NCBI RefSeq assembly: GCF_024171955.1
Contig: NZ_JAMTCS010000001.1
Span: 372,001-436,000 of the forward strand
DNA length: 64,000 bases
Reading direction: 5' to 3'
From: Promicromonospora thailandica
GTDB lineage: Bacteria > Actinomycetota > Actinomycetes > Actinomycetales > Cellulomonadaceae
The position numbers were made by a program, and so were the translations under genes. Shown in pieces: positions 35,726 to 62,760 of the stretch (position 1 is the first letter of the stretch; the number at the start of each line of letters is the position of its first letter). The notes beneath the pieces are model-generated. The model did no database searches and had not been told where the DNA came from. It saw only the letters and a list, made by a program, of their open reading frames with translations.

Positions 35726-35727
35726 GG

Positions 35728-36819: not shown

Positions 36820-36879
36820 CGTTGATCCTCGATTTCGTTGGTGCCGGTGACCGGCGGGGGGTGTCGTAGGGACGGAGGG

Positions 36880-37650: not shown

Positions 37651-38465
37651 AGGTCCTCCAGCGCCACGGGGCTGAGGTCGGTGTAGACGTTGTTCTCCCC
37701 GGCCATGGCCCAGATGAAGGCGTACGACCCGGTGCCGGCCCCCGCGTGGATGGACCACGGCGGGGAGATCACGGCCTCGCGGTTGCGCATCACGAGGTGG
37801 CGCGTGGCGCCGGGCTGCCCGAGGAAGTGGAAGACGCGGTCGGTCTCCTCGAGGTCCACGTAGCAGTAGATCTCGGTGCGCCGGTCGTGCAGGTGCGGCG
37901 GGAAGGTGTTCCAGACGGAGCCGCTGGCGATGACCGTCACGCCGAACTGGAGCACGGAGGTCTGCAGCTCCTGGCCCCACGCGTAGCGGAAGAGGTTGCG
38001 CTCGTTGGCCGCCTCGGCCGAGCCCAGCGCGACCGGCTCCACCTCGGTGTGGCGCAGCGCCGTGGTCGGGTAGGTCGCGTGCGCCGGGGCCGACACGAAG
38101 TAGAAGGCGGCGTCGGCGCCGCCGAAGGTGACCTGGCTCCCCCGGCCCACGAAGAGGCCGTCGAGGTGGTCGAGCTCGTACTTCTCGTCGTCGACGACGA
38201 CGTGGCCCGCACCTCCGACGTTGATGACCCCCAGCTCGCGCCCCTCGAGGTGGGACGCCGTCCCCAGCACCTCGGTCCAGGCGGGCAGCTCCACCTCGTC
38301 GGTGCCGGGGACCGCCCCGCCCACGACCAGCCGGTCGTCGTGGGTGTACGTTCCCCGCACCTCGCCGGCCGCGAAGAGGTCGGGAACGAGGAAGCTCTCC
38401 CGGAGGTCCGCGGTGGTGGCCGTCTCCGCGCCGGACGGAGATGTCGAGTATCGAACCTGGATCAC
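37647..38465 (-). CDS. kduI: 5-dehydro-4-deoxy-D-glucuronate isomerase
   Basis: A 272-residue cupin isomerase that converts 5-keto-4-deoxyuronate (from unsaturated pectin- or glycosaminoglycan-derived uronates) to 2,5-diketo-3-deoxygluconate. The zinc ligands are visible as H191 and H193 (FPPHLHDRRTEIYCYVDL), E198 and H240 (PPWSIHAGAGTGSYAFIWAMAGEN). The length equals that of E. coli KduI (278). GTG 38465 has GAGGGG about 8 nt upstream. First gene of the operon, divergent from an IclR-type regulator. Confidence 0.95.
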   Translation of the reverse strand: MIQVRYSTSPSGAETATTADLRESFLVPDLFAAGEVRGTYTHDDRLVVGGAVPGTDEVELPAWTEVLGTASHLEGRELGVINVGGAGHVVVDDEKYELDHLDGLFVGRGSQVTFGGADAAFYFVSAPAHATYPTTALRHTEVEPVALGSAEAANERNLFRYAWGQELQTSVLQFGVTVIASGSVWNTFPPHLHDRRTEIYCYVDLEETDRVFHFLGQPGATRHLVMRNREAVISPPWSIHAGAGTGSYAFIWAMAGENNVYTDLSPVALEDL

Positions 38466-38483: not shown

Positions 38484-38592
38484 GTGAACTGCGTTCGTCT
38501 ATGTGAACTACGCCGACCATAGACGTGACCCCGGTCACGGGTCAAGGGGCGGAAACCTGTCCATGTATGCGAACTCGCGGTAGTGTCAGAAT
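38484..38592. promoter_or_regulatory. IclR-kduI divergent regulatory region
   Basis: GTGAACT occurs at 38484-38490 and 38503-38509 (19 nt apart, on one face of the helix), and a related GCGAACT at 38569-38575. The first is half of a near-palindrome TGAAC-TGC-GTTCG (38485-38497). A separate dyad CGTGACC-CC-GGTCACG fills 38524-38539. TAGTGT (38581-38586) is a good -10 for the regulator gene. KdgR-type IclR proteins bind RAAAC-N3-GTTTY-like dyads, so the TGAAC-N3-GTTCG site is the best operator candidate. Confidence 0.5.
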
Positions 38593-46467: not shown

Positions 46468-46587
46468 GGTCGCCGTCCGATCTGCTCGGGGTGCACGGTC
46501 TCCGGCCAGCCTCACCCGGGACGCGGTCACCCGCACGTGATCACACCCCGGGAGCGCCTCGCCGCCCGGAAGACTGCACGGAGAAGC

Positions 46588-46623
46588 GGTTCGAGATGCG
46601 AGTGGTCGCGGGGCGCTCGAACG
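46588..46623 (+). promoter_or_regulatory. Conserved 36-bp element, copy 2
   Basis: GGTTCGAGATGCGAGT, CGC at 46607-46609 and CGAACG at 46618-46623 match copy 1 at 41567-41602 in order and spacing. The end lies 48 nt before the GTG of the carbamoyltransferase (50 nt in copy 1). No other copy was found in the window by eye. Confidence 0.6.
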
Positions 46624-46671: not shown

Positions 46672-48327
46672 GTGCGAGTTCTCGGAGTGAACGCTCTCTT
46701 CCACGATCCCTCGGCCGCGCTCGTCGTGGACGGCCGGATCCTCGCCGCCGCCGAGGAGGAACGGTTCACCCGGCGCAAGCACGGCAAGCGGCCCGTGCCG
46801 TTCGCGGCCTGGGAGCTGCCGGAGCACGCCATGCGGTGGTGCCTGGAGGCGAACGGGCTCACGCCCGGCGACCTCGACGCCGTCGCCTACTCCTTCGACC
46901 CGGCCCTCGCCGAGCCCGCCGAGGCGATGGGCCTCGCCGACCCGTGGGACTGGCTGCGCCTGCGGTACGCCGAACGGGCCCCGCAGTTCATCGCCACGGC
47001 CCTGCCCGGCCTGGACCCCGGCCTCGTCCGGTTCGTGCCGCACGAGGTGTCGCACGCCGCGTCCGCGGCGCTCGCCGCCCCCTTCCCCGCGTGCAGCGTG
47101 ATGTCGCTCGACGGCCGCGGCGAACGCTCCTCCTTCCTGGCGGGCCGGTACGAGGACGGCAAGCTGGAGGTGCTCGCGACCCAGGACCTGCCCCACTCGC
47201 TCGGCCTGGTCTACGAGTCCCTGACCGAGCACCTCGGGTTCCTGCGGTCGAGCGACGAGTACAAGGTGATGGCGCTCGCGTCCTACGGCCGGCCGCGGTT
47301 CCTGCCCGAGCTGCGGGAGCTGCTACGGACCGACCCGGAGGGCGGCTTCGTCGCCGAGGCCCCCGACTGGTCGCAGTGGGCCGCCCCGGGCTCCCCGGGG
47401 CTCACCGACGGCGGCCTCGGCGACGACCAGGCGGACCTCGCGGCGTCGCTCCAGGCGCGGCTGGAGGAGCTGCTCGTCGAGCTGGCCACGTGGCTGTACG
47501 CGCGCACGGGGGACGAGGCGCTGGCGCTCGCCGGCGGGACGGCCCTGAACTGCGTGGCGAACTCGCGGCTGTGGCGGGGCACCCCGTTCGAGCACGTCTG
47601 GGTGCAGCCCGCGGCCGGCGACGCGGGGACGGCGCTCGGCGCCGCCCTCCAGCTCACGGCCGAGGCGGGCGTGGTGCCCGAGCCCATGACCTCCGCGGCC
47701 CTGGGTCCCTCCTGGTCGGACGACGAGCTCGCCGAGGCGCTGCGCACGGCCCGGATCCCGTTCGGCACGCCGGACGACCTGCCGGAGCAGGTGGCCGCCG
47801 TGCTGGCCGACGACGGCATGGTCGCCTGGTTCGACGGGCGCTCCGAGTTCGGGCCCCGCGCCCTGGGGCAGCGCTCGCTGCTCGCGCACCCGGGCCACCG
47901 GGCCAACACGGAGCGGCTCAACCTGGTCAAGGGCCGCGAGCAGTTCCGCCCGGTGGCGCCCATGGTGCTCCTCGAGCACGCCGAGGAGATCTTCTCGGGC
48001 GGCCCGCTGCCCAGCCCCTACATGCTGTTCGTGCACGACGTCGCCCCGGCCTGGCAGAGCCGCATCCCCGCGACCGTCCACGTGGACGGCACGGCCCGCG
48101 TCCAGACGGTCGACGGCTCCCAGCCCCGGCTGCAGGCGACCCTCCGCGCGTTCCGGGACCGCACGGGCCTGCCGGTCCTGGTGAACACGAGCCTCAACAC
48201 GGCGGGCCGCCCCATGGTCGACAGCCCGCGCGACGCGCTCGAGCTCTTCGGTTCCGCACCGGTCGACGCGCTGGTGCTGGGGCCCCACCTCGTCCGCCGG
48301 GCCGACGCGTTCGGGGGTGCGGCATGA
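46672..48327 (+). CDS. Carbamoyltransferase (NodU/CmcH/TobZ family)
   Basis: Transfers a carbamoyl group from carbamoyl phosphate via carbamoyl-adenylate to a hydroxyl, typically of a sugar or antibiotic. The 551 residues contain the N-terminal ASKHA-fold half (VLGVNALFHDPSAALVVDG, AAAEEERFTRRKH, PHEVSHAASAAL, LTEHLGFLRSSDEYKVMALASYG) and the C-terminal carbamoyl-transfer half (DGRSEFGPRALGQRSLLAHP, FRPVAPMVL, VNTSLNTAGRPMVDSPRDAL). GTG 46672 has GGAGG 5 nt upstream. First gene of the heptose operon; its stop overlaps the next ATG (ATGA). Confidence 0.93.
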   Translation: MRVLGVNALFHDPSAALVVDGRILAAAEEERFTRRKHGKRPVPFAAWELPEHAMRWCLEANGLTPGDLDAVAYSFDPALAEPAEAMGLADPWDWLRLRYAERAPQFIATALPGLDPGLVRFVPHEVSHAASAALAAPFPACSVMSLDGRGERSSFLAGRYEDGKLEVLATQDLPHSLGLVYESLTEHLGFLRSSDEYKVMALASYGRPRFLPELRELLRTDPEGGFVAEAPDWSQWAAPGSPGLTDGGLGDDQADLAASLQARLEELLVELATWLYARTGDEALALAGGTALNCVANSRLWRGTPFEHVWVQPAAGDAGTALGAALQLTAEAGVVPEPMTSAALGPSWSDDELAEALRTARIPFGTPDDLPEQVAAVLADDGMVAWFDGRSEFGPRALGQRSLLAHPGHRANTERLNLVKGREQFRPVAPMVLLEHAEEIFSGGPLPSPYMLFVHDVAPAWQSRIPATVHVDGTARVQTVDGSQPRLQATLRAFRDRTGLPVLVNTSLNTAGRPMVDSPRDALELFGSAPVDALVLGPHLVRRADAFGGAA

Positions 48328-49886
48328 CGCCCGCGCCGTCGTACGCGGTGGTGGTGCCCACCGTCGGGCGCACCCGGCTGGCCGCGCTGCTCGCGTCGGT
48401 GCGGCAGGCGGCGGCCGTCGGGCCCGCACCGGAAGAGGTCGTCGTCGTCGACGACCGCCCCGTGCCGCGGCGCGGCCCGAACCCGCCGCTCGACCTGGGA
48501 CCGGACCCGGTGCCCGGCGTCCGCGTGCTGCGCAGCGCGGGCCGCGGCCCCGCCGCCGCCCGCAACGCCGGCTGGCGGTCCGTCCGCACGGAGTGGGTCG
48601 CGTTCCTGGACGACGACGTGGTCGTGCCCCCGCTCTGGGCCGACGCGCTCGCCCAGGACCTCGCCGCCGCCGGGCCCGACGTCGGCGGGGTGCAGGGCCG
48701 GATCCGGGTGCCGCTGCCGGGGCACCGGCCGCCCACCGACCTCGAGCGCAACACCGCCGGCCTGGAGCGCGCCCGCTGGGCCACGGCCGACATGGCCTAC
48801 CGGCGGGCCGCCCTCCAGGCGGTGCACGGCTTCGACGAACGCTTCCCGCGCGCCTACCGGGAGGACGCCGACCTGGCCCTGCGGGTCCGCGCGGCCGGCT
48901 GGGACCTGGAGCGCGGGGTGCGCACCGTCGAGCACCCGGTGCGGCCGGCGGGCGGTCTCGCGAGCCTGCGCGCCCAGGCCGGCAACGCCGACGACGCCCT
49001 GCTGCGCGCGCTCCACGGCCCCGCCTGGCGCACCCGCACCGAGGCGGGGCCCGGGCGCCTGCCCTGGCACGTCGCCACGGTCGCGGCGGGCCTCACGGCG
49101 CTGGGGGCCGGCGTGACGGCGGCCGCCCTGACCGACCGGGACCCGCACACGACCCGTGTCGTGGCCGCCCTCGCGGGCGCCGCGTGGGCGGGTCTGACGG
49201 CGCGGTTCGTCCACGAGCGGCTCGCACCAGGGCCACGCCCCGGCGACGAGGGCCACGCGGCCGAGGTGCGCCGGATGATCGTCACCAGCGTGCTCATCCC
49301 CGTCGCCGCCGTCGCGCACCGCGTGCGCGGGGCCTGGCGCTGGCGGCAGGGCCTGGGCCGGACCGTGCCGCCCTGGCCGCTGCCGGTGCGGGCCGTGCTG
49401 TTCGACCGGGACGGCACGCTGGTCCGCGACGTGCCCTACAACGGCGACCCGGACGCCGTCGAGCCCCTGCCCGGCGCGCGGCGCGTGCTCGACGGGTTCC
49501 GCGCGGACGGCCTGTTCGTCGGCGTCGTGTCGAACCAGTCCGGCATCGGCCGCGGGATGCTGACCGGCGCCCAGGTCGACGCGGTCGACCGCAGGATCCG
49601 CCGGCTGCTCGGCCGCTTCGACACCTGGCAGCGCTGCCCGCACGCCCCCGAGCAGGGCTGCTCGTGCCGCAAGCCCGAGCCCGGCCTGGTGCTGCGGGCC
49701 GCCGACGACCTCGGGGTGCTCCCGGCGGAGTGCCTCGTGGTCGGCGACATCGGCAGCGACGTCGGCGCGGCGGTCGCGGCCGGCGCGCGCACCGTCCTGG
49801 TGCCCACCGAGGTGACCCGGACCGAGGAGCTGACCCGGGCCCCCGCGGTGGCGGCCACGCTCGACGAGGTGGTGACGCTCCTGTGA
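48324..49886 (+). CDS. Fusion of family-2 glycosyltransferase and GmhB-type heptose bisphosphatase
   Basis: 520 residues in three parts. Residues 1-230 form a GT2 (GT-A) domain with VVVDDRPV, metal-binding FLDDDVV (D96-D98) and EDADLALRVRAAGW. Residues about 248-335 contain two to three membrane helices. Residues 355-520 form a HAD phosphatase with catalytic D361/D363 in LFDRDGTLVRD, VVSNQSGIGRG and the zinc ligands C438, H440, C446 and C448 (CPH...CSC), the pattern of D-glycero-D-manno-heptose-1,7-bisphosphate 7-phosphatase. The phosphatase supplies the third step of ADP-heptose synthesis. The joining of both activities, with the enzyme domain on the same side of the membrane as the GT, is unusual. 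Confidence 0.88.
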   Translation: MTPAPSYAVVVPTVGRTRLAALLASVRQAAAVGPAPEEVVVVDDRPVPRRGPNPPLDLGPDPVPGVRVLRSAGRGPAAARNAGWRSVRTEWVAFLDDDVVVPPLWADALAQDLAAAGPDVGGVQGRIRVPLPGHRPPTDLERNTAGLERARWATADMAYRRAALQAVHGFDERFPRAYREDADLALRVRAAGWDLERGVRTVEHPVRPAGGLASLRAQAGNADDALLRALHGPAWRTRTEAGPGRLPWHVATVAAGLTALGAGVTAAALTDRDPHTTRVVAALAGAAWAGLTARFVHERLAPGPRPGDEGHAAEVRRMIVTSVLIPVAAVAHRVRGAWRWRQGLGRTVPPWPLPVRAVLFDRDGTLVRDVPYNGDPDAVEPLPGARRVLDGFRADGLFVGVVSNQSGIGRGMLTGAQVDAVDRRIRRLLGRFDTWQRCPHAPEQGCSCRKPEPGLVLRAADDLGVLPAECLVVGDIGSDVGAAVAAGARTVLVPTEVTRTEELTRAPAVAATLDEVVTLL

Positions 49887-50989
49887 CGACCCCCGACACC
49901 CTTCCCGGCCGGGTCCTGGCGGTACGGCTCGACAGCGACGGCGACGTGCTCCTGACCGGCCCCGCCGTCCGCGCGCTGGCCGCGACGTACGAGCAGGTCG
50001 ACCTGCTCGTCTCCGAGGCCGGCGCCCAGGCCGCCGCGCTGCTGCCCGGCGTCAGCGAGACCCTCCGGTTCGAGGCCCCGTGGTCCGGCACCGAGCCGCC
50101 CCCGGTCTCGGCGCAGGCCGTCACCGACCTCGTGTCCGACCTCGCCACGCGCCGGTACGAGCTGGCCGTGATCTTCACGTCGTTCCACCAGTCGCCGCTC
50201 CCCATGGCCCTGCTCGCCCGCCTCGCCGGCATCCCCCGCGTCGTCGCCACGAGCGTCGACTACCCGGGCTCGCTGCTCGACGTCCGCCACCGGCGCGGAC
50301 CCGGGCTGCACGAGGTCGAGGCGGCGCTCGAGCTCGCGGACCGGGCCGGCGCCCGGCTGCCGGACGGCGACGACGGCCTGCTGGCGGTCCGCCGTCCGCT
50401 CCCCGCCGTACCCGCGGACGTCGCCGACCCGCCCGACCTCGCCGGCACACCGCCGCGGCGCACCGTCGTCGTGCACCCCGGGGCGTCCGTGCCGGCCCGC
50501 GCACCGCTGCCCGAGGACGCCCGGGCGCTCGCCGAGCGCCTCGCGGACGACGGCTGGGACGTGGTCGTCACCGGTTCCGCGGCGGAGCAGGACCTGACGG
50601 CCTTCGTGGCGGGCGACCACGCCACCGACCTCGGCGGCCGGACGACGCTGGCCGAGCTCGCCGCCGTGCTGGAGTCCGCGGCCTGCGTCGTGGTGGGCAA
50701 CACCGGGCCGGCGCACCTCGCCGCGGCCGTCGGCACGCCCGTGGCCAGCCTGTTCGCCCCCGTCGTCCCGGCCGAGCGGTGGCTGCCCTACGGCGTGCCG
50801 CGCCTCGTGCTCGGCGACCAGACAGCGGCCTGCCGCGCCACCCGCGCCCGGACGTGCCCCGTGCCCGGCCACCCGTGCCTCGCGTCGGTCAGCCCGGAGG
50901 AGGTGGCCGCCGCCGTCGACCGGCTCGCCCGCCCCGTCCCCGCCGCGACGGACGGCGTGGACCCGGCCGACGAGGGGTGGCTGTCGTGA
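49883..50989 (+). CDS. Glycosyltransferase family 9 (heptosyltransferase-like)
   Basis: A 368-residue GT-B protein. GT9 landmarks: VLAVRLDSDGDVLLTGPAVRALAATYEQVDLLVSE at the N terminus, VVVHPGASVPARAPLPEDARALAERL, and the donor-site motif VVVGNTGPAHLAAAVGTPVASLFAPVVPAERW (about residues 270-302). GT9 enzymes usually transfer heptose from ADP-heptose. A cluster of cysteines (CRATRARTCPVPGHPC) near residue 325 resembles the C-x(n)-C pattern of GT9. GTG overlaps the preceding stop. Confidence 0.88.
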   Translation: MTTPDTLPGRVLAVRLDSDGDVLLTGPAVRALAATYEQVDLLVSEAGAQAAALLPGVSETLRFEAPWSGTEPPPVSAQAVTDLVSDLATRRYELAVIFTSFHQSPLPMALLARLAGIPRVVATSVDYPGSLLDVRHRRGPGLHEVEAALELADRAGARLPDGDDGLLAVRRPLPAVPADVADPPDLAGTPPRRTVVVHPGASVPARAPLPEDARALAERLADDGWDVVVTGSAAEQDLTAFVAGDHATDLGGRTTLAELAAVLESAACVVVGNTGPAHLAAAVGTPVASLFAPVVPAERWLPYGVPRLVLGDQTAACRATRARTCPVPGHPCLASVSPEEVAAAVDRLARPVPAATDGVDPADEGWLS

Positions 50990-52005
50990 GGGTGCTGCTC
51001 TGGCACGTGCACGGGTCGTGGACCACCGCCTTCGTCCAGGGCGGGCACGAGTACCTGGTGCCCGTGCTGCCCGGCCGCCCGGCGGACGGGCGCGGACGCG
51101 CCCGCACCTGGGACTGGCCCGCCTCCGTGCACGAGCTGACGCCCGACGGCCTGCGCCGCGCGTTCGACGAGGGCGGCGTGGACGCCGTGCTGCTCCAGCG
51201 GCCGCACGAGGCGCGGCTGCTGCGCGCATGGACCGGCCGCCGGGCCGGGCACGACGTCCCGGCCGTCTACCTGGAGCACGACGCACCGGGCGGCCCCGCC
51301 GCCGCGACCCGGCACCCCATGGCGGACGCCGACGTCGTGGCCGGCGGCCGGGTGCCGGTCGTGCACGTCACCGGCTTCAACGCCCTCATGTGGGACACGG
51401 GCCGGGCCCGGACCGTCGTCATCGACCACGGCGTGCCCGATCCCGGCCCCCGCTGGACGGGCGAGCGCGCGCACGTCGCCGCCGTCGTCAACGAACCCGT
51501 GCGGCGGTGGCGCGCCGCGGGCACCGACGTGCTGCTGCACGTGGCGAGCCGGGTGCCGGCCGAGGTGTACGGGATGGGCACGGAGCACCTGGCGGAGCAC
51601 CTGGGCACCCGCGGCCCGACGGCGGCCGCCACGGCCGGCCGCCTGTACGACCTGCCTCAGGCCGCGCTGCACGACCGCCTCGCCGGCGCCCGCGCGTACC
51701 TGCACCCGTACCGGTGGACCAGCCTCGGCCTCGCGCTGCTGGAGGCCATGGCCCTGGGCCTGCCCGTGCTCGCCCTGCCGGTCACCGAGGCCTACGCCGC
51801 CGTGCCGCCGTCGGCCGGGGTGCTCAGCACCGACCCCGACGAGCTCGCGGCCGTGGCCCGGCGCTGGCTCGCCGACCCCGCGGAGGCCGCCGCGTACGGC
51901 AAGGCCGCCCGGGAGCACGTGCTCACCCGCTACCCGCTCGACGTGTTCCTCGACCGGTGGACCACGCTGCTCGACCAGGAGGTCTCCGCATGGGCACGAG
52001 CATGA
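50986..52005 (+). CDS. Glycosyltransferase family 4-like protein
   Basis: A 339-residue GT-B protein. The C-terminal nucleotide-sugar half shows YLHPYRWTSLGLALLEAMALGLPVLALPVTEAYAAV (E-x7-E-like motif near residue 250) and DPDELAAVARRWLADPAEAAAYGKAAREHV. The N terminus VRVLLWHVHGSWTTAFVQGGHEYLVPV begins a Rossmann-like fold. It looks like a shortened GT4 that acts on the same glycan. GTG 50986 overlaps the GT9 stop by 4 nt. Confidence 0.82.
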   Translation: MRVLLWHVHGSWTTAFVQGGHEYLVPVLPGRPADGRGRARTWDWPASVHELTPDGLRRAFDEGGVDAVLLQRPHEARLLRAWTGRRAGHDVPAVYLEHDAPGGPAAATRHPMADADVVAGGRVPVVHVTGFNALMWDTGRARTVVIDHGVPDPGPRWTGERAHVAAVVNEPVRRWRAAGTDVLLHVASRVPAEVYGMGTEHLAEHLGTRGPTAAATAGRLYDLPQAALHDRLAGARAYLHPYRWTSLGLALLEAMALGLPVLALPVTEAYAAVPPSAGVLSTDPDELAAVARRWLADPAEAAAYGKAAREHVLTRYPLDVFLDRWTTLLDQEVSAWARA

Positions 52006-53300
52006 GGATCGGCATGATCTCGGAGCACGCCAGCCCGCTCGCCGTACTGGGCGAGGCGGACGCGGGCGGGCAGAACGTCCACGTCGCGGCGCTCGCCCGC
52101 CGCCTGGCCGCCGACGGCCACCACGTCGACGTCTACACGCGGCGCGACGACGCCGCGCTGCCCTGCCGCGTACCCCTGACCGACGGCGTGGACGTGGTGC
52201 ACGTGGACGCCGGGCCGCCGAGGCCGCTGCCCAAGGACGAGCTGCTGCCCTGGATGGACGCGTTCGGGGACGAGCTCGCCGCCCGCTTCACCGACCCCGC
52301 GGTACGGCCCGACGTGCTGCACGCGCACTTCTGGATGTCCGGGGTCGCCGCGCTGCGCGCGACCCGGTGGTCCGTCCACCCGGGCGTGCCGGACATCCCC
52401 GTGGTCCAGACCTTCCACGCGCTGGGCACGGTCAAGCGGAGGCACCAGGGGGACGCCGACACGAGCCCGCCCGCGCGCGTCGACCTCGAGGCGGCGCTGT
52501 GCCGCGACGTGGACCTGGTGGTCGCCACGTGCCAGGACGAGGTGCGCGAGCTGCACCGCATGGGCGCCGACGACGACCGGCTCCGGGTGGTGCCCTGCGG
52601 GGTCGACCTCGGGGTGTTCACCCCCGGCCCGCACGGGTCGCGCCGCCCCGACGGCGACGGCACCCTGCGCGTGCTCTCCCTCGGCCGCCTCGTGGAGCGC
52701 AAGGGCGTCGCCACGGTGATCGAGGCGCTCGCGCTGCTGGCCGGGCGCGGCCGGAGCGACGTCGAGCTGGTCGTCGCCGGCGGCCCGCCGGCCGCCGGGG
52801 TGCACCGCGACCCGGAGGCACGCCGCCTGCTCGACCTCGCCCTGCGGGCCGGGGTCGCGGACCGCGTGCGGTTCGTCGGCGCGCTGTCCCACGACCAGGT
52901 GCCCGGCCTGCTGCACGACGTCGACGCTGTGGCCTGCACGCCCTGGTACGAACCGTTCGGCATCGTGCCGCTGGAGGCTGCCGCCTGCGGCCGGCCGGTC
53001 GTCGCCTCGGCGGTGGGCGGCATGCTCGACACGGTGGTGCACGACCGCACCGGGCTGCTGGTACCGCCCCGCGACCCCGAGGCGGTCGCCGACGCGCTCG
53101 AACGGTTGTCGGACGACCGGTACCGGCACCGCCTGGGCGCGGCTGCCCGGGTCCGCGCCGAGCGCAGCTACGGCTGGGCCGCCGTGGCGCGGCAGACCGC
53201 CGACGCCTACGCCGAGGTCGTCGGAGCCCCGTCCACCCGCGGCCGGCCGGACCGGACCGCGACGCGCCCCGCGCCCGTCCCCACCGGAGGAGTCCGATGA
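51990..53300 (+). CDS. Glycosyltransferase family 4
   Basis: A 436-residue GT-B enzyme of the retaining type. Start AGGAGG at 51977-51982 then ATG 51990; it overlaps the previous gene by 16 nt. N-terminal MISEHASPLAVLGEADAGGQNVHVAALARRLAADGHHVDVYTRRDD is a GT4 (sucrose synthase/MshA-like) sugar-acceptor region. C-terminal RVLSLGRLVERKGVATVIEAL and CTPWYEPFGIVPLEAAACGRPVVASAVGGM carry the E-x7-E pair. The donor is unknown; the operon suggests ADP-heptose or a second sugar. Confidence 0.9.
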   Translation: MGTSMRIGMISEHASPLAVLGEADAGGQNVHVAALARRLAADGHHVDVYTRRDDAALPCRVPLTDGVDVVHVDAGPPRPLPKDELLPWMDAFGDELAARFTDPAVRPDVLHAHFWMSGVAALRATRWSVHPGVPDIPVVQTFHALGTVKRRHQGDADTSPPARVDLEAALCRDVDLVVATCQDEVRELHRMGADDDRLRVVPCGVDLGVFTPGPHGSRRPDGDGTLRVLSLGRLVERKGVATVIEALALLAGRGRSDVELVVAGGPPAAGVHRDPEARRLLDLALRAGVADRVRFVGALSHDQVPGLLHDVDAVACTPWYEPFGIVPLEAAACGRPVVASAVGGMLDTVVHDRTGLLVPPRDPEAVADALERLSDDRYRHRLGAAARVRAERSYGWAAVARQTADAYAEVVGAPSTRGRPDRTATRPAPVPTGGVR

Positions 53301-54052
53301 GCGACCGCACCCTCAGCACGGCCGACCAGCAGCCGCCCGGCCGGACCGGCTGGCTGCACCGGCACTGCGCCGACCTCGGCGTCGGCCTCGACTACGTGAC
53401 CGCCGCCCACGAACGGATCGAGGCCTGGGGCGGCGACCTCGCCGACCGGCTGCTGTCCGGGCACCGCCTGCTCGTGGCCGGGAACGGGGGCAGCGCCGCG
53501 GAGGCGCAGCACCTGACCGCCGAGCTCGTCGGGCGGTTCGAGGGCGAGCGGGTGCCGCTCGCCGCGATCGCCCTGCACGCCGAGACCTCCAGCCTCAGCG
53601 CCATCGTCAACGACTACGGGCAGGACGAGATGTTCGCCCGGCAGGTCGCCGCGCACGGCCGGCCCGGTGACGTGCTGCTGTGCCTGTCGACCTCCGGGTC
53701 GAGCGCGAACGTGCTGGTGGCGGCGCGGCGGGCCCGCGAGCTGGGGCTCACCACGTGGGCCCTGACCGGGCAGGCGCCCAACCCGCTCGCCGCGCTGTGC
53801 GACGACGTGCTCGCCGTCCCGTCCGCCTCGGGGTCCGCCGTGCAGGAGGTCCACCTGGTGGTGGTGCACGCCCTGTGCGCGGCGCTCGACGCCCGGGTGG
53901 CGGCGCGGGACCAGGAACGGGATCAAGAACGGGAGCGGGCACGGGTGCGGGAACGGACCCGGGAGCGCACACAGGAGAAGGTCCGGGGGCCAATCCGTGA
54001 CAAGGTCCGGGGCCCGGCGGCCGGCTCGCCCGCGGCGGGAGCGCGCAGGTGA
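53297..54052 (+). CDS. gmhA: Sedoheptulose-7-phosphate isomerase (GmhA-like) with Arg/Glu-rich tail
   Basis: A SIS-domain isomerase, 251 residues, making D-glycero-D-manno-heptose 7-phosphate. AGNGGSAAEAQHLTAELVGRF (61-81, E69 in the position of the catalytic glutamate), VNDYGQDEMFARQV, STSGSSANVL (131-140) and SGSAVQEVHLVVVHAL (H186 as zinc/catalytic histidine) match GmhA of about 190 residues. Residues 204-240 are an unusual charged low-complexity tail of RE/RD/QE repeats. The ATG overlaps the preceding stop. It is followed immediately by hldE. Confidence 0.88.
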   Translation: MSDRTLSTADQQPPGRTGWLHRHCADLGVGLDYVTAAHERIEAWGGDLADRLLSGHRLLVAGNGGSAAEAQHLTAELVGRFEGERVPLAAIALHAETSSLSAIVNDYGQDEMFARQVAAHGRPGDVLLCLSTSGSSANVLVAARRARELGLTTWALTGQAPNPLAALCDDVLAVPSASGSAVQEVHLVVVHALCAALDARVAARDQERDQERERARVRERTRERTQEKVRGPIRDKVRGPAAGSPAAGARR

Positions 54053-55722
54053 CGGCCGCCGGACGCGTGACCCTGGCCTCGGTGCCGGACGCCACGGTGC
54101 CCGACGCCACGGTGCCCGACTTCACGGTGCCCGGCCGTCGGCCGGCGCGCCCGGTCGTGGTCGTGGTCGGTGACGTGCTGCTCGACCGGGACGTCGACGG
54201 CACGGTCACCCGGCTCGCCCCCGACGCGCCTGTGCCGGTGGTCGACGTGACGCACGTGCGCCAGAGCCCGGGCGGCGCGGGACTCGCGGCGCTGCTCTGC
54301 GCCCGGCGTGCCGACGTGGTGCTCGTGACCCCGCTCGCCGACGACGCGGACGGGCGCGAGCTGCGCCACCAGCTCCGCGACGTGGCGCTCGTCGGGCTCG
54401 GCCACGAGGGTCCGACCCGCCGCAAGACGCGCGTGCGCAGCGCGGGTCAGAACCTCGTCCGGGTGGACGACGGCGGTCCGGGCACGCCGGCCGACGTCAC
54501 CGCGAGCACCGCCCTCGTGCGCGACGTCCTCGCGCGCTGCGACGCCGTGCTGGTCGCGGACTACGGCGGCGGCGTGAGCCGCGACCCGGCGCTGCGCGAC
54601 CTGCTCGCCGAGGCTGCCGGCCGGGTGCCCCTCGTCTGGGACCCGCACCCCCGGGGCGGCGCCCCCGTGCCCGGGGCGGCCCTGGTCACGCCGAGCGCGG
54701 CCGAGGCGGAGCGGGCCGCCGCGGACCTCCCCGGACCACCGGCCGGCACCGACGCCGCGGCCGCGGCCGGCGCCCTCCGCCGGGCGTGGGACGCGGAGGC
54801 CGTCTGCGTGACCGCGGGCGAGCAGGGTGCGTTCGTCGCGACCCGCTCGGGCGACGCCGCGGACGACGACGGCCCGGACGACGCCGCGGACGATGACGGC
54901 CCGGACGACGGGCTGCCCGGGCCGGTCCGCCACGTGCCCGCCCCGCCCGTGCCCGGTGCCGACCCGTGCGGCGCGGGCGACTGCTTCGCCGCGGCCGCCG
55001 TCGTCGGCCTGGCCGAGCGCACGAACGTGGGCACCGACGCGGGCACCGACGCGAGGAGCACCGACGCGAGCGGCACCGACGTGACCGCCGCCGAGGTGAT
55101 GGACGCCGTCCAGGAGGCCGTCGCCGCCGCGAGCGCCTGGGTCGCGTCGGGCGGCGCGGACGGCTTCCGCCGCGCCCGCGAGTCCGGCGCGGCGCCCGCC
55201 GCACCGGCCCCGGAGGTCTCGCTCGCGGAGCTCGGCGCCCGGCTGCGGGCGGACGGCGGCACGCTGGTGGCGACCAGCGGCTGCTTCGACCTGCTGCACG
55301 CGGGCCACGTGAGCCTGCTGTCGGCTGCCCGGCGGCTCGGCGACCACCTCGTGGTGCTGCTCAACTCCGACAGCTCGGTGCGCCGGCTCAAGGGGCCGGA
55401 GCGTCCTGTCGTGCCCCTGGAGGACCGGGCCCGGGTGCTGGAGGGGCTGGCGTGCGTCGACGCCGTCGTCGTGCTGGACGACGACGAGCCGTCCGCCGCG
55501 GTGGCCGCGCTCCGGCCCGACGTCTGGGCCAAGGGCGGCGACTACACCTGGCACGACCTGCCCGAGGCGGCGGTCGTGCACGCCTACGGCGGGCGGGTCG
55601 TGACCGTCCCCCGCCTCCGGGGCCGGTCGACCACCGGGCTCGTCAGCCGGGTCCGGGAGTCGGAGCCGGTCGGCCCCGTCCGCGCCGCGACACCCACCGC
55701 AACCACGAGGAGGTCGTCATGA
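54049..55722 (+). CDS. hldE: Bifunctional heptose 7-phosphate kinase / heptose 1-phosphate adenylyltransferase (HldE-like)
   Basis: 557 residues. Residues about 35-385 are a PfkB-type kinase (VGDVLLDRDVDGTVTRLAPDAPVPVV, DYGGGVS, catalytic GAGD at 308-311), which makes heptose 1,7-bisphosphate. Residues about 393-545 are a cytidylyltransferase-like domain (TSGCFDLLHAGHVSLL with H417 and H420, KGGDYT), which adds AMP to heptose 1-phosphate. E. coli HldE is 477 residues; the excess is low-complexity repeats: an N-terminal VPDAT repeat, DAADDDGPD twice (269-286) and GTDA-type repeats (about 328-344). GTG overlaps the gmhA stop. Confidence 0.9.
   Translation: MTAAGRVTLASVPDATVPDATVPDFTVPGRRPARPVVVVVGDVLLDRDVDGTVTRLAPDAPVPVVDVTHVRQSPGGAGLAALLCARRADVVLVTPLADDADGRELRHQLRDVALVGLGHEGPTRRKTRVRSAGQNLVRVDDGGPGTPADVTASTALVRDVLARCDAVLVADYGGGVSRDPALRDLLAEAAGRVPLVWDPHPRGGAPVPGAALVTPSAAEAERAAADLPGPPAGTDAAAAAGALRRAWDAEAVCVTAGEQGAFVATRSGDAADDDGPDDAADDDGPDDGLPGPVRHVPAPPVPGADPCGAGDCFAAAAVVGLAERTNVGTDAGTDARSTDASGTDVTAAEVMDAVQEAVAAASAWVASGGADGFRRARESGAAPAAPAPEVSLAELGARLRADGGTLVATSGCFDLLHAGHVSLLSAARRLGDHLVVLLNSDSSVRRLKGPERPVVPLEDRARVLEGLACVDAVVVLDDDEPSAAVAALRPDVWAKGGDYTWHDLPEAAVVHAYGGRVVTVPRLRGRSTTGLVSRVRESEPVGPVRAATPTATTRRSS
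54853..54906 (+). repeat. In-frame 27-bp duplication in hldE
   Basis: Two adjacent 27-bp units encode DAADDDGPD twice and differ by one base (GAC/GAT). They insert an acidic loop into the kinase domain ahead of its GAGD motif. Confidence 0.9.
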
Positions 55723-56477
55723 CCGTGCCGCCCACCACATCAGCCACGTCCACCACATCCGCCACCACCGCTCCCGCCGTCCCGCCCGCCCCGCGGCCGG
55801 TCGGCACCGTGCTCGTCACGGGCGGCTCGTCCGGGCTCGGTGCCGCGCTCGTCGACGCGGTGTCCGCCGCGGGCGGGACGCCCGCGGTGCTCGACGTCGC
55901 GGAGCCGCGCGCCGACGTGCCGTTCGTGGCCGCCGACCTGGGCGACCCCGGCGCCGCGCAGGCCGCCGTCGACGCGCTGGTCGAGCAGGTGGGGCCGCCC
56001 GACGCCGTCGTGACCGCCGCGGGCATCGACGCGTGCGGTCCCCTGCTGGAGATCGACCCGGAGCGCTGGGAGCGGGTCGTGCGCGTCAACCTGTTCGGCA
56101 CGGTCGCCGTGGTCCGGGCCGCCCTGCCCCACCTGGAGGAACGGCGCGGCACGGTGGTCACGGTCGCCTCGACTCTCGCGCTGCGGGGTGCGGCCGACGC
56201 GACCGCCTACTGCGCGTCCAAGTGGGGCATCCGCGGGTTCAGCCAGGCGCTGGCCGCCGAGTACGCGGGCCGGGTCGGCGTGACGTGCCTGATCCCCGGC
56301 GGCATGCGGACCCCGTTCTTCGACGGCCGCACCGAGCAGTACCGGCCGGGCCCCGACGCCGACCTCAACGACCCCGCGGCGACGGCGGGCGCGGTGCTCA
56401 CGGCGCTCACCCAGCCGCGCGGGAGCGAGATCCGCGAGATGCTCGTCATGGCGTCGGGCGAGGCGTCCTGGCCGTGA
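55719..56477 (+). CDS. Short-chain dehydrogenase/reductase
   Basis: A 252-residue classical SDR preceded by a 25-residue Thr/Ala/Pro-rich segment. TGGSSGLGAA is the NAD(P) motif near residue 34; catalytic region TVASTLALRGAADATAYCASKWGIRGFS with Tyr-x3-Lys near 165-169. It is not the extended-SDR HldD type, which is about 310 residues, so it is not an obvious ADP-heptose epimerase. It may oxidise or reduce the sugar. ACGAGGAGG precedes the ATG, which overlaps the hldE stop. Confidence 0.87.
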   Translation: MTVPPTTSATSTTSATTAPAVPPAPRPVGTVLVTGGSSGLGAALVDAVSAAGGTPAVLDVAEPRADVPFVAADLGDPGAAQAAVDALVEQVGPPDAVVTAAGIDACGPLLEIDPERWERVVRVNLFGTVAVVRAALPHLEERRGTVVTVASTLALRGAADATAYCASKWGIRGFSQALAAEYAGRVGVTCLIPGGMRTPFFDGRTEQYRPGPDADLNDPAATAGAVLTALTQPRGSEIREMLVMASGEASWP

Positions 56478-56502
56478 GGGGACGAGGCGGACGGAGAACA
56501 CC

Positions 56503-57519
56503 ATGACGGTGCTGGTGCTGCGGGCGCTCGGCCTGGGCGACGCGCTGACGGGGGTGCCCGCGCTCCGCGGGGTGCGCCGGGCCTGGCCGGGGCACCGGAT
56601 CGTGCTGGCCGCGCCGCCGGGGGTCGGCACGTGGCTGACCCGCCTGGGGGTGGTGGACGCCGTCCTGCCCGCACGGGGTCTCGGCCGGCTGCCGTGGCCC
56701 TGGGCGGGGCCCGGCGGCGCGAAGGACGCCCCGGGCTGCCTGGCGGTGGACCTGCACGGCCGCGGCCCGCGCAGCCACCAGGTGCTGCAGGCGACCCGGC
56801 CGGACGCGCTCGTCGCCTTCGGCAACCCCCGCGCCGGGCACGTCGGGCCCGAGTGGGTGGCCGGCGAGCACGAGGTGCTGCGCTGGTGCCGGCTGGTCCG
56901 CACCGTCGGCGGGGTCTGCGGCCCGGAGGACCTGCGCCTCGGCCCGCCCGACCCGCCGGGCGGGCGGGGCGAGCACGTCGTGGTGCACCCGGGGGCCGCG
57001 GCCGCCGCGCGGCGCTGGCCCCCGGCGCGCTGGGCGCGGGTGGTCGCGGCGCTGGTCGCCGAGGGTCGTCCCGTGGTGCTGACCGGATCCGCGGACGAGC
57101 AGCGGCTCTGTCACCAGGTGCGCTGTGCGTCGGGCGTGGGCGCGGCCGTCCGGGACCTGTCCGGCCGGCTCTCGCTGCCCGCGCTGGCCGACCTCGTGGC
57201 GTCGGCGCGGCTGCTGGTCAGCACCGACACCGGTGTGGCCCATGTCGCGACGGCGTACGGCACGCCGTCCGTCACCCTGTTCGGGCCTACCCCGCCCGCA
57301 CACTGGGGGCCGCTGATCGACCGGGAGCGGCACGTCGTCGTCTGGCACGAGCAGTCCGGCACCCCGCCCCGCGACGCCAACGCGAACCGCCTGGACCCGG
57401 CCCTCGACCGCGTCTCGGCGGACGACGTGACCGCGGCCTGCGACCGGGCGCTCAGGCCGCGGCCGGCGACCGCTGCCGGAACCACTCCACGGTCCGTGCC
57501 AGCCCGTCCCGCCAGCTGA
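56503..57519 (+). CDS. Glycosyltransferase family 9 (second heptosyltransferase-like)
   Basis: A 338-residue GT-B protein of the GT9 family. VLVLRALGLGDALTGVPALRGVRRAWPGHRIVLAA at the start, VVVHPGAAAAARRWPPARWARVVAALVAEG, and STDTGVAHVATAYGTPSVTLFGPTPPAHWGP (about residues 240-270), the donor-binding signature. It follows the SDR by 25 nt and is the last gene of the operon. Its 3' end overlaps the convergent epimerase gene by 68 bp. Confidence 0.9.
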   Translation: MTVLVLRALGLGDALTGVPALRGVRRAWPGHRIVLAAPPGVGTWLTRLGVVDAVLPARGLGRLPWPWAGPGGAKDAPGCLAVDLHGRGPRSHQVLQATRPDALVAFGNPRAGHVGPEWVAGEHEVLRWCRLVRTVGGVCGPEDLRLGPPDPPGGRGEHVVVHPGAAAAARRWPPARWARVVAALVAEGRPVVLTGSADEQRLCHQVRCASGVGAAVRDLSGRLSLPALADLVASARLLVSTDTGVAHVATAYGTPSVTLFGPTPPAHWGPLIDRERHVVVWHEQSGTPPRDANANRLDPALDRVSADDVTAACDRALRPRPATAAGTTPRSVPARPAS

Positions 57520-58423
57520 CCCGGGGCTCCCAGCCCAGCTCGGACCGGGCCAGCCCGATGTCGGGGCAGCGCATGCCCGGGTCGTGCACGGGGCGCTCGA
57601 CGTGCTCGACCGCCGACACCGATCCCGTCGCCGCGAGCACGTCGGCCGCGATCTGCCGCACCGAGAGCTCGTGCGGGTTGCCGAGGTTCATCGGGCCCGG
57701 GTGGCCGCTGTCCGCGAACGCCAGCAGGCCCGCGACCAGGTCGTCGACGTAGCACAGCGACCGGGTCTGCGTGCCGTCGCCCGCCACCGTGAGCGGCTCG
57801 CCCGCGAGCGCCTGCCGCACGAACGTGGGCACCACGCGCCCGTCGTGCCCGCGCATGCGCGGACCGTAGGTGTTGAAGATGCGCACGATGCCGGTGTCGG
57901 TGCCCGTGGCCCGCCGGTAGCCGGCGGTCAGGGCCTCGCCGAAGCGCTTGGACTCGTCGTACACGCTGCGCGGCCCGACGCTGCTCACGTTGCCCCAGTA
58001 GCTCTCGTGCTGCGGGTGCACCTGGGGGTCGCCGTACACCTCGGACGTCGAGGCCAGCACGAACCGCGCGCCCTGCTCCCGGGCCAGCTCCAGCGCGGCG
58101 CGCGTGCCCCGGGAGCCGGCGTCGAGGGTCTCGAGCGGGTGCTCGAGGTAGTCGACGGGGGACGCGGGCGAGGCGAGGTGCAGCACGAGGTCGGTGCCGG
58201 GCCGCAGGGCGGCGCGGACGGACCGCGAGGTGAGGCCATCGGCGACGTCGCACCGCTCGAACCGCAGCCGCTCGTGCCCGCGCACGCCCGCCAGGTTGTC
58301 CAGGCTGCCGGTGAGCAGGTTGTCCAGGCACAGCACCTCCGCGCCGGAGTCGAGGAGCGCCTCGCAGAGCCTGCTGCCCACGAACCCCGCGCCGCCCGTG
58401 ACGACGGCTCGCACGGGGGTCAC
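57452..58423 (-). CDS. NAD-dependent nucleotide-sugar epimerase/decarboxylase (extended SDR, UXS-like)
   Basis: A 323-residue extended SDR. NAD motif VTGGAGFVGSRLCEALL at residues 8-24; HLASPASPVDYLEHP and active-site SVYDESKRFGEAL (YxxxK); RIFNTYGPRM; NLGNPHELSVRQIA. This combination is closest in style to UDP-glucuronate decarboxylase and related 4,6-dehydratases; ADP-heptose epimerase (HldD) cannot be excluded. The start is GTG 58423 by domain start; a weak GGCGAGA precedes it. It converges on the heptose operon and could modify the same glycan. The 68-bp tail-to-tail coding overlap is odd but both C termini look normal. Confidence 0.82.
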   Translation of the reverse strand: MTPVRAVVTGGAGFVGSRLCEALLDSGAEVLCLDNLLTGSLDNLAGVRGHERLRFERCDVADGLTSRSVRAALRPGTDLVLHLASPASPVDYLEHPLETLDAGSRGTRAALELAREQGARFVLASTSEVYGDPQVHPQHESYWGNVSSVGPRSVYDESKRFGEALTAGYRRATGTDTGIVRIFNTYGPRMRGHDGRVVPTFVRQALAGEPLTVAGDGTQTRSLCYVDDLVAGLLAFADSGHPGPMNLGNPHELSVRQIAADVLAATGSVSAVEHVERPVHDPGMRCPDIGLARSELGWEPRVSWRDGLARTVEWFRQRSPAAA

Positions 58424-58572
58424 GGGTCTCGCCGATCGTCTGGCGCGCTCCCCGGGAACACGGTCCGGTTCTGGCTGCCCATCGGTCGTCCTCTCGCCCG
58501 GGCCCGGCAGCCTGGTCTCGACCACACCGTCCACCCTGCACCCGGCCCGGATCACTCGCAGCGCCGCGCCCG

Positions 58573-61192: not shown

Positions 61193-62596
61193 TCAGCGCG
61201 CTGCGAGGGGTTCCGTGGCCGGGCCGTCGAGCACCGCGCCGTCGGCGGCGAAGCGCGACCCGTGCACGGGGCAGTCCCACGACTGCTCCTGGTCGTTCCA
61301 CCGGACCACCCCGCCCAGGTGCGGGCAGACCCGCGACACCCGACGGGACCCGGCGCGCTGCCCGGACGGGCGGGTCGCGGCGCAGGCCCAGCCGGCCGAC
61401 TGCTCGGCGAACGTCGCGACCGTGTCGCGCGTGGGGCGTGCTGGGCGGGCCCACGGCTCCAGGGCCGGGGCCCAGTACTCGGGGCTCCCCAGCAGGCGGC
61501 CCGCCAGGGCGAGCCCGGCGGCCGCGGCCGTGGTGAGCCCCCACTTGGCGTACCCGGTCGCCACGAGCACCCGGTCGTCGCCGGGCACCGCGGGCCCGAC
61601 CAGGGGCATCCCGGTGTCGCTCGTGTAGTCCTGGGCCGCCCAGGCGTGCCGCGCGGCGCCCACGGGCAGGTGCTCCCGGACCCACCCCTCCAGCGCGGCG
61701 ACGCGCGCCGCCGGGTCGGGCTCCCGGCCCACGGCGAAACCCTCGCCGCCGACCATGAGCAGGTTGCCCGCCGTGCGCAGCGAGCGGGTCGGGGACCCCG
61801 CGGTGATCGACATGGTCGAGGCGAACCCCGGCGGCAGGTCCTCTGCCCGGGCCACGTCCCACGTCGTGATCAGGCTGCGGCCCGCGTGGAGCCGCAGGAA
61901 CAGGCCGCCGACACGTCCCGGCGGGGTGCCGGTGGCCAGGACCACCCGGTCGGCGACGACGGTGCCGCGGGTCGTCCGCAGCGCGACGCCGGTGCCGTGC
62001 CGGCGCACCTGCCGCACGCGGACGCCGTCGTGCACCGCGACGCCGCGGGCGTGCAGCCGGGCGCGCAGGGCCGCGAGCGCCCGCAGGGGGTCCACCTGGC
62101 CCTGGCCGGGGAGCCGCACGGCGCCGTGGTTCGCGCCCGGGTACGGCGGCTCGTCCTCCCAGTGGACGGGCAGGCCGTGGCGCAGGCCCACGGCGAGGAC
62201 GTCGTCGAGCACCGCGGTCTGCTCGGCCGTGGTCGCCACCGTCAGGTCGTCGCGGTCCTCCACGGGCACGCCCACCTCGGCGAGCGTGCGGCGCAGCCAG
62301 CCCAGGCCCGCCGTGCCCGCGGCGACGTAGTGGTGCACCGTGTCCTCCCCGAGGCGGGCGAGCTCGGCGAGCCGGGTGCCCTGCAGCAGCGAGAGCTTGC
62401 CCGTGGAGCGGGCGGTGGTGGTTGCAGCGGCCGCTGTGCCGGCCGGTGCGCCGGCCGTCCCGGCGTCGAGGACGACGACGTCCGCGCCGCCGTCGGCGAG
62501 CAGGTGCGCCGTCACGGTGCCGGTGAGTCCCGCGCCCACCACGACCACGTCGGCGCGCAGGGGGCCGCGCGCCGTCTCCTGGATGCTGTCGTCCAT
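61193..62596 (-). CDS. DAO-type FAD oxidoreductase with C-terminal Rieske domain
   Basis: A 467-residue fusion. Residues 1-375 form a D-amino-acid-oxidase-like FAD enzyme (DVVVVGAGLTGTVTAHLLADGG, GTGVALRTTRGTVVADRVVLATG, RVLVATGYAKWGLTTAAAAGLALA). Residues about 400-467 form a Rieske [2Fe-2S] domain with C424-x-H426 (CPHLGG) and C442-x2-H445 (CPVHGSRF). The same architecture is known in a family of unknown substrate. GGAGGC precedes the ATG. It stands alone between the NRAMP operon and the ANTAR regulator. Confidence 0.9.
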   Translation of the reverse strand: MDDSIQETARGPLRADVVVVGAGLTGTVTAHLLADGGADVVVLDAGTAGAPAGTAAAATTTARSTGKLSLLQGTRLAELARLGEDTVHHYVAAGTAGLGWLRRTLAEVGVPVEDRDDLTVATTAEQTAVLDDVLAVGLRHGLPVHWEDEPPYPGANHGAVRLPGQGQVDPLRALAALRARLHARGVAVHDGVRVRQVRRHGTGVALRTTRGTVVADRVVLATGTPPGRVGGLFLRLHAGRSLITTWDVARAEDLPPGFASTMSITAGSPTRSLRTAGNLLMVGGEGFAVGREPDPAARVAALEGWVREHLPVGAARHAWAAQDYTSDTGMPLVGPAVPGDDRVLVATGYAKWGLTTAAAAGLALAGRLLGSPEYWAPALEPWARPARPTRDTVATFAEQSAGWACAATRPSGQRAGSRRVSRVCPHLGGVVRWNDQEQSWDCPVHGSRFAADGAVLDGPATEPLAAR

Positions 62597-62760
62597 CCTG
62601 CCTCCGATCGCTGCGCCGTGCCCGGACCGTCCCAGGCTGGCACGGGGCGTGCGGACTCGCAGGGGCCGGTCAGGGGGCTGCGGTGGCCGGTGCCCGGGAA
62701 CCGGGCTACGGTCAAGGTGGAGTCAAGACACGGCGCCGGACTGCGATGACGGAGGCCCCG

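Follow-up and report, generated by a model that had tools for sequence, protein, structure and literature searches.

The cwg operon of Streptomyces coelicolor (SCO6179-6190, cwgA-L) consists of twelve genes, which are induced by vancomycin, are partly dependent on sigmaE and were named for the synthesis of a cell wall glycan. CwgE has been described as a putative heptosyl transferase, and CwgH and CwgI as a putative phosphoheptose isomerase and a bifunctional synthase/transferase, respectively. In Pseudomonas, the lipopolysaccharide (LPS) carries a carbamoyl group on heptose II, and the 7-O position is assigned to a putative WapO-type enzyme (PMC6801904, PMC8005017). Here we describe an operon of nine genes at positions 46672-57519 of a 64,000-nucleotide stretch of DNA (the window), which derives from a Promicromonospora genome of 5.38 Mb in 24 contigs. 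By sequence comparison, this operon is orthologous to cwg of S. coelicolor and belongs to an actinobacterial cwg family.

Relation of the locus to the cwg operon

The published cwg promoter was searched in 392 genomes of one genus, which we take to be Streptomyces. One exact match and eight matches with 1-3 mismatches were obtained. In the exact-match genome the promoter lies 147 nt from the start codon, which is the published distance. The twelve genes that follow encode a UDP-glucuronate decarboxylase-like protein, a carbamoyltransferase, a family 2 glycosyltransferase (GT2), a HAD phosphatase, a GT9, two GT4 proteins, GmhA, HldE, another GT9 and two further GT2 proteins; positions 5, 8 and 9 agree with the published names of CwgE, CwgH and CwgI. 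Within the short stretches covered, a CwgA gene of 91-98% identity was present in five of the eight near-match genomes (L119, L120, L123, L124 and L127). The remaining three were covered by 20 kb each. One of them (L136) retains the GT2, part of the HAD and the second GT4 (GT4b), and two (L137, L138) hold no operon gene; a near match of the promoter alone is therefore no proof of the operon.

The window proteins are 45-68% identical to the cwg proteins of the exact-promoter genome. The order carbamoyltransferase-GT2-HAD-GT9-GT4-GT4-GmhA-HldE-GT9, corresponding to cwgB-cwgJ, is shared, and so is an orthologue of CwgA. The window differs in the fusion of GT2 with HAD and in an added gene for a short-chain dehydrogenase/reductase (SDR). 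Its cwgA gene is convergent with the operon, whereas cwgA is the first gene of the operon in S. coelicolor, and instead of a sigmaE-like promoter another conserved site was found upstream.

All nine genes lie on the + strand. The coordinates and domain calls were confirmed, and every family named in these genes scored above its curated Pfam cut-off. A stop-start overlap of 4 nt (ATGA or GTGA) occurs at 7 of the 8 gene junctions and a gap of 25 nt at the eighth; the gene starts were deduced from these overlaps. The heptose operon with a carbamoyltransferase that the initial annotation of this DNA had described is therefore real, on the grounds of its coordinates, domains, common strand and overlaps. 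Its nine genes stand as annotated. A convergent CwgA-like gene (57455-58555, - strand) had been overlooked, and the functional unit probably extends past 57519 to this gene.

The literature on the SCO numbers, on cwg and on heptose or carbamoyl groups in actinobacteria was searched, with subscription journals thinly covered and sources accessible in part. No determined product was located there, and no heptose- or carbamoyl-containing actinobacterial wall polymer was among the matches listed. The initial annotation had allowed that the operon might already be assigned to a described product; the operon is indeed published, as cwg, but without a product that we could locate. The operon family is thus already known. 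Added here are its wide distribution and the link of heptose, carbamoyl and UDP-xylose-type genes to cwg.

Recurrence across actinobacteria and the tie between carbamoyltransferase and HldE

When genome contigs were scanned for the carbamoyltransferase, 34 loci were obtained, which belong to many actinobacterial genera and to some metagenome-assembled genomes (MAGs). In a phylum sample of 396 genomes, 86 had an HldE match (E<=1e-3) and 40 a carbamoyltransferase match (E<=1e-100); scoring was limited to the few top candidates of each genome, and some matches may have been missed. A set of loci was assembled from 39 stretches around the better HldE matches and from later additions. It comprised 80 loci, each 9 kb or longer, the window included; L038, L144 and L145 were dropped as repeats, and L001 and L060 belong to the window's own genome.

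At least 5 of the 7 core genes were found in 53 of the 80 loci, and the core genes were on one strand in 51. As L082 and L149 are overlapping parts of one genome, the 53 loci represent 52 genomes. The carbamoyltransferase was present in 43 of them, the GT2-HAD in 52, the first GT9 in 53, the two GT4 proteins in 49 and 53, GmhA in 50, HldE in 52, the SDR in 41, the second GT9 in 48 and the CwgA-like protein in 26; the loci had been selected for HldE or carbamoyltransferase, and these counts are no phylum frequencies. A GT2 of the CwgK/CwgL family, of which no member was found in window positions 38001-63000, was present in 19 of the 53 loci and is therefore not obligatory for the operon family. 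The recurrence of one gene order in dozens of genomes puts the operon far beyond chance. A rare cluster or a natural-product cluster was rejected on the same recurrence. An unusual cluster, limited to a few actinobacterial makers of natural products, is not supported either, since the operon is a cwg orthologue that is widespread in Actinomycetota.

Three MAGs (L047, L052 and L057, labelled Solirubrobacterales, Conexibacter and Eremiobacterota) contain the carbamoyltransferase at 60-66% identity, and two of them hold most of the operon (41-66%). These occurrences could reflect transfer or misbinning. Reduced operons were seen in L053 (carbamoyltransferase residues 1-442 and CwgA), in L146 (genome G248) and in L136 (genome G577), which suggests repeated loss.

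The carbamoyltransferase is tied to the heptose genes, as had been annotated. Among the 396 genomes, HldE (E<=1.1e-24) was found in 31 of the 34 with a carbamoyltransferase (E<=1e-200) and in 20 of the 362 others, at thresholds that were picked after inspection of the lists and without correction for relatedness. In the three carbamoyltransferase genomes that remain, a direct search, run without its own positive control, gave no HldE; the same query matched in 17 of 18 genomes elsewhere. In two of these exceptions the contig stops after the carbamoyltransferase and a partial GT2, and the third, of a Streptomyces-type genus (L146), has CwgA, the carbamoyltransferase and GT2 only. Distant carbamoyltransferases, 38-48% identical and found in six genomes, were accompanied by no HldE match. 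From the 34 loci of the contig scan, 18 genomes were searched and HldE was present in 17; in the lone exception, Cellulomonas timonensis (L053), the carbamoyltransferase match spans residues 1-442 and a CwgA-like gene adjoins it.

The tie also holds where the genes are unlinked. In eight Geodermatophilaceae-type genomes (L036, L037, L039, L040, L041, L042, L045 and L054) the carbamoyltransferase gene lies apart from the operon, and HldE was present in 8 of 8. In all five stretches examined, HldE was inside an operon that lacks the carbamoyltransferase. A passenger role of the carbamoyltransferase was therefore rejected, since it tracks HldE even when unlinked, with the exceptions given above. 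The distance matrices of HldE and carbamoyltransferase correlated with r=0.69 (n=42) and those of the CwgA-like protein and carbamoyltransferase with 0.93 (n=21), values reached in 0 of 99 permutations. The correlations of the SDR were the weakest (0.34-0.45).

Predicted enzymes of the operon

The first gene (46672-48327) encodes a predicted O-carbamoyltransferase of 551 amino acids, the CwgB orthologue, which is 68% identical to the Streptomyces cwg copy and 83-87% identical across five Promicromonospora loci among the matches listed. The presence of both Pfam domains, Carbam_trans_N and Carbam_trans_C, places it in the TobZ/NodU/WapO-type family. Its relatives of solved structure include TobZ, GdmN and a novobiocin carbamoyltransferase. 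As judged by Pfam and NCBIfam models, the second gene (48324-49886, 520 amino acids) encodes a GT2 fused to a HAD-IIIA phosphatase of the GmhB type; it corresponds to CwgC plus CwgD. The GmhB structures 4pnh, 3l8e and 2gmw align within residues 345-502. The GmhB-type phosphatase domain was therefore rightly annotated as present, but it forms the C-terminal half of the GT2 protein and has no gene of its own. The two halves were fused in 39 of the operon loci and split in 6, and in 8 one or both were not found.

GmhA (53297-54052), the predicted sedoheptulose-7-phosphate isomerase and CwgH orthologue, has the Pfam domain SIS_2 and matched many phosphoheptose isomerase structures. HldE (54049-55722), the CwgI orthologue with the domains PfkB and CTP_transf_like, would combine a heptose-7-phosphate kinase with a heptose-1-phosphate nucleotidyltransferase. 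GmhA, HldE and the GmhB-like part scored well on their NCBIfam equivalog models, though all under the cut-offs; for HldE the scores were 239 bits on the HldE model (cut-off 521), 174.9 on rfaE_dom_II (181.5) and 107 on rfaE_dom_I (345). The enzyme names are therefore based on homology to solved enzymes and on conserved positions. In GmhA, H72, E76, Q183 and H191 are at least 95% conserved among 50 sequences, and a stricter C-terminal pattern matched 37 of the 50. The GAGD and HxGH motifs of HldE were each found in 51 of 52 sequences. The Zn-loop pattern of the HAD part was present in 50 of the 50 loci that have it, and DxDGT in 45 of them. We take these conserved positions and motifs to be catalytic. 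Some other patterns were too strict, one for the carbamoyltransferase matching 2 of 43 sequences and one for CwgA 10 of 26.

By homology, the isomerase, kinase/nucleotidyltransferase and GmhB-like phosphatase steps thus all appear to be represented, and the annotated enzyme set for a nucleotide-heptose is supported. Of the ADP-heptose pathway of Gram-negative bacteria (GmhA-HldE-GmhB-HldD), every domain needed as far as ADP-D,D-heptose is represented here, whereas HldD was not found and the GmhB function is a domain of the GT2 protein. With the HldD model TIGR02197, the best score in the whole genome was 102.5 bits against a cut-off of 274.6, in agreement with the annotated lack of a clear ADP-heptose 6-epimerase. 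Because no 6-epimerase scored over this cut-off, a D,D-heptose is expected, and the nucleotide-heptose is probably ADP-D,D-heptose. The SDR (55719-56477) was considered as the missing epimerase and rejected, since it is a classical SDR by Pfam (adh_short) and no HldD-model match in the genome is over the cut-off. Its Y164 and K168 are at least 95% conserved, and it has no match within the Streptomyces cwg locus.

At the C-terminus of the window HldE, an Arg occupies the fifth position before STT (RLRGRSTT). Arg at this STTR5 position has been associated with the use of CTP and UTP (PMC11461863). Among the relatives, the position is Tyr in 31 of 40 and Arg in 1 of 40, and the pattern was unmatched in 12 of 52 sequences. 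The feature that would suggest use of several nucleotides by the window HldE is thus not shared by its relatives.

Two GT9 proteins resemble heptosyltransferases. The CwgE orthologue (49883-50989; start inferred from the GTGA overlap) is 58% identical to the Streptomyces copy. The CwgJ orthologue (56503-57519) is 50% identical to its counterpart and matched the structures of heptosyltransferases II and I; both proteins contain the Pfam domain Glyco_transf_9. The CwgF orthologue (50986-52005), with Glycos_transf_1 and related domains, is a GT4 protein 55% identical to the Streptomyces copy. The second GT4 (52002-53300), for which the query protein began at 52014 and was 4 amino acids short, was assigned as CwgG by Pfam, NCBIfam, structural and Streptomyces cwg comparison. 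It scores 246 bits on the MshA model (cut-off 462.5) and also resembles the cyanobacterial structure 6kih, presumably a sucrose-phosphate synthase. Since another protein of the genome scores over the MshA cut-off, a role of this GT4 as the mycothiol enzyme was rejected.

The protein of the convergent gene (57455-58555), read from the longest open reading frame (ORF), is 63% identical to Streptomyces CwgA, with homology beginning near residue 34-49. All four structures with E values under 1e-40 are UDP-glucuronate decarboxylase 1 (2b69, 285 bits), and 0 of 25 NCBIfam models listed were over their cut-offs. It was rejected as a candidate HldD: it does match the HldD model (67.9 bits) but is far closer to UDP-glucuronate decarboxylase (UDP-xylose synthase). 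The same convergent position was observed in L027, L028, L029, L033, L038, L056, L088 and L089 and in the five Geodermatophilaceae-type loci L139-L143. Six loci have, close to the operon, an ORF of the UDP-glucose dehydrogenase family, confirmed by Pfam for the L031 member. In L080, L093, L099 and L100 this ORF comes immediately after the last GT9 gene and on its strand, and in L031 and L032 it lies at that place in convergent orientation. It likely supplies UDP-glucuronate, the substrate of CwgA. Together, the two genes make a pentose such as xylose a likely second sugar of the product.

About 91 nt before the first gene, the window carries the element GAGAAGCGGTTC (46581-46592, + strand), its sole copy in the window within 1 mismatch. 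All 12 positions matched in 8 of 58 upstream regions (the window, L026, L028, L029, L030, L032, L033 and L056) and 11 of 12 in L027 and L089; five of the eight exact sites lie 90-97 nt upstream. It is a possible operator or promoter element. No GAGAAGCGGTTC regulon was found: elsewhere in the genome the exact element occurs twice, both times inside an ORF, and the two GAGAAGCGCTTC copies examined were also within ORFs. Fuller palindromes such as GAGAAGCGCTTCTC were seen in some other upstream regions.

In the vicinity, positions 33153-38465 (- strand) encode a sugar-type ABC transporter ATPase, a periplasmic binding protein and a KduI/IolB-family protein, with a divergent IclR regulator at 38525. 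This locus resembles one for sugar uptake and catabolism that is unrelated to the heptose operon. An ORF for an FAD-dependent oxidoreductase (61196-62722, - strand, read from stop to stop) is located downstream of the operon here, whereas in L027 and L028 it immediately precedes the carbamoyltransferase gene; its L027 relative has DAO and Rieske domains.

The predicted product and its alternatives

From the gene content, the cwg orthology, the co-occurrence and the conserved positions, we consider it rather likely that the operon makes a short, defined, carbamoylated and heptose-containing oligosaccharide of the envelope, which would be assembled stepwise in the cytoplasm like an LPS core. GmhA would convert sedoheptulose-7-phosphate to heptose-7-phosphate, the kinase half of HldE would form heptose-1,7-bisphosphate, the HAD half of the GT2 fusion would remove the 7-phosphate, and the transferase half of HldE would yield the nucleotide-heptose, expected to be ADP-D-glycero-D-manno-heptose. 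The two GT9 enzymes would transfer heptose. The CwgA-like enzyme would convert UDP-glucuronate to UDP-xylose or a related pentose, and UDP-xylose probably feeds the oligosaccharide. GT2 and the two GT4 enzymes would attach the remaining sugars, and the carbamoyltransferase would cap a heptose, comparable to WapO, which is thought to act at O-7 in Pseudomonas. Export and attachment would be carried out by genes elsewhere in the genome. Each reaction, the order of the sugars, the position of the carbamoyl group, the acceptor and the envelope location are inferred.

This product would resemble the Pseudomonas inner core in that two heptosyltransferase-type GT9 proteins and an O-carbamoyltransferase are present in both. 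In contrast to the inner core, there is here no LpxC and no 6-epimerase over the cut-off, and GT4 and GT2 proteins and a pentose-forming enzyme are found instead. No match to LpxC was obtained in the genome, in a search that matched 4 of 14 controls, which argues against ordinary LPS as the product. A surface glycan, as initially annotated, remains the likeliest product.

That the operon instead contributes to a long repeating wall glycopolymer of the teichuronic- or teichulosonic-like type, for which genes elsewhere would provide polymerisation, flipping and ligation by LCP proteins, is unlikely in our view. The label of cwg as a cell wall glycan operon fits such a polymer, and five LCP-family genes are located elsewhere in the genome, whose proteins could attach the product to the wall. 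Promicromonospora also has non-phosphorylated anionic wall polymers, but the reported polymers of the genus contain no heptose (PMC6801904). In addition, no polymerase, flippase, ligase or lipid-carrier initiating enzyme was found in the operon or seen among the recurrent neighbours, and two GT9, two GT4 and one GT2 fit a stepwise assembly. With five glycosyltransferases and neither polymerase nor flippase in these places, we favour a defined oligosaccharide over a long polymer.

A natural product, secreted or kept in the cell, that contains a carbamoylated heptose and is made in the manner of septacidin is less probable still. Several solved relatives of the carbamoyltransferase are antibiotic tailoring enzymes, and the use of a nucleotide-heptose by an actinobacterium is common to the operon and the septacidin-type pathways. 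However, the operon genes include no polyketide or non-ribosomal peptide synthase scaffold, no resistance gene and no export gene. A commentary names septacidin as a use of nucleotide-heptose in Streptomyces (PMC11461863). Conservation over many families of the phylum and control by envelope stress in S. coelicolor are atypical of a specialised metabolite. We regard as the least probable alternative that heptose is transferred to proteins or to a phosphoinositol-type lipid and that the carbamoyltransferase acts on this glycan. MshA-like enzymes can use inositol-phosphate acceptors, and one GT4 is MshA-like, though under the cut-off; it is also like 6kih, which leaves several acceptors conceivable. 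The E. coli heptosyltransferase Aah glycosylates a protein (PMC11461863), but the Aah/TibC model gave 18 bits against a cut-off of 200, and no dedicated acceptor gene was seen.

Several observations weigh against the carbamoylated envelope oligosaccharide. The equivalog scores of the heptose enzymes are under the cut-offs, and the co-occurrence figures carry the limits given above; shared ancestry alone could yield the distance-matrix correlations. A further 27 of the 80 loci fall short of the operon, mostly with the carbamoyltransferase alone or with few genes, some being cut by contig ends and some having another type of HldE. Three genomes (G041, G259 and G333) have the operon but gave no carbamoyltransferase match at E<=1e-100, and carbamoylation is therefore inessential to the product. 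The GT2 half was likewise not found in these three genomes, a joint absence which hints that both enzymes act on the same residue; L044, with a carbamoyltransferase and no GT2 match, argues against such a rule. Neither flippase, polymerase nor ligase was found among the operon genes or the recurrent neighbours (families in at least 6 loci, assessed partly by eye). An ABC-transporter ATPase family, which could be the exporter, was found in 8 of the 53 loci at scattered positions. The sigmaE-type pattern AAC-N15-18-[CG]GTC was not found in the 300 nt upstream of the window operon, nor upstream of 21 other loci, and the regulation may therefore differ.

The wall polymers of the P. citrea type strain also count against it; those reported are a Kdn polymer and a pyruvylated galactan, with no heptose (PMC6801904). 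The genome of P. citrea ATCC 15908 has the carbamoyltransferase and the start of GT2 on a contig and a piece of HldE. We assume that this and the strain of the polymer study are the same type strain. Unless the product is minor, stress-induced, neutral or lipid-bound, the proposed envelope oligosaccharide is wrong.

More tentatively, a carbamoyl-heptose/pentose oligosaccharide that is found throughout the phylum, on a lipid or the wall of the Gram-positive envelope, may tune the response to cell wall stress, and the cwg product may be an analogue of the Pseudomonas inner core. In the accessible literature, cwg has been cited as a target of the sigmaE envelope-stress response in Streptomyces since a paper of 2002, without a determined product that we located. 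The comparison across the phylum now yields a chemical prediction, namely D,D-heptose, a pentose derived from UDP-glucuronate and an O-carbamoyl group. By this comparison, a surface chemistry based on heptose appears to be widespread in actinobacteria and to extend beyond Gram-negative LPS and a few antibiotics.

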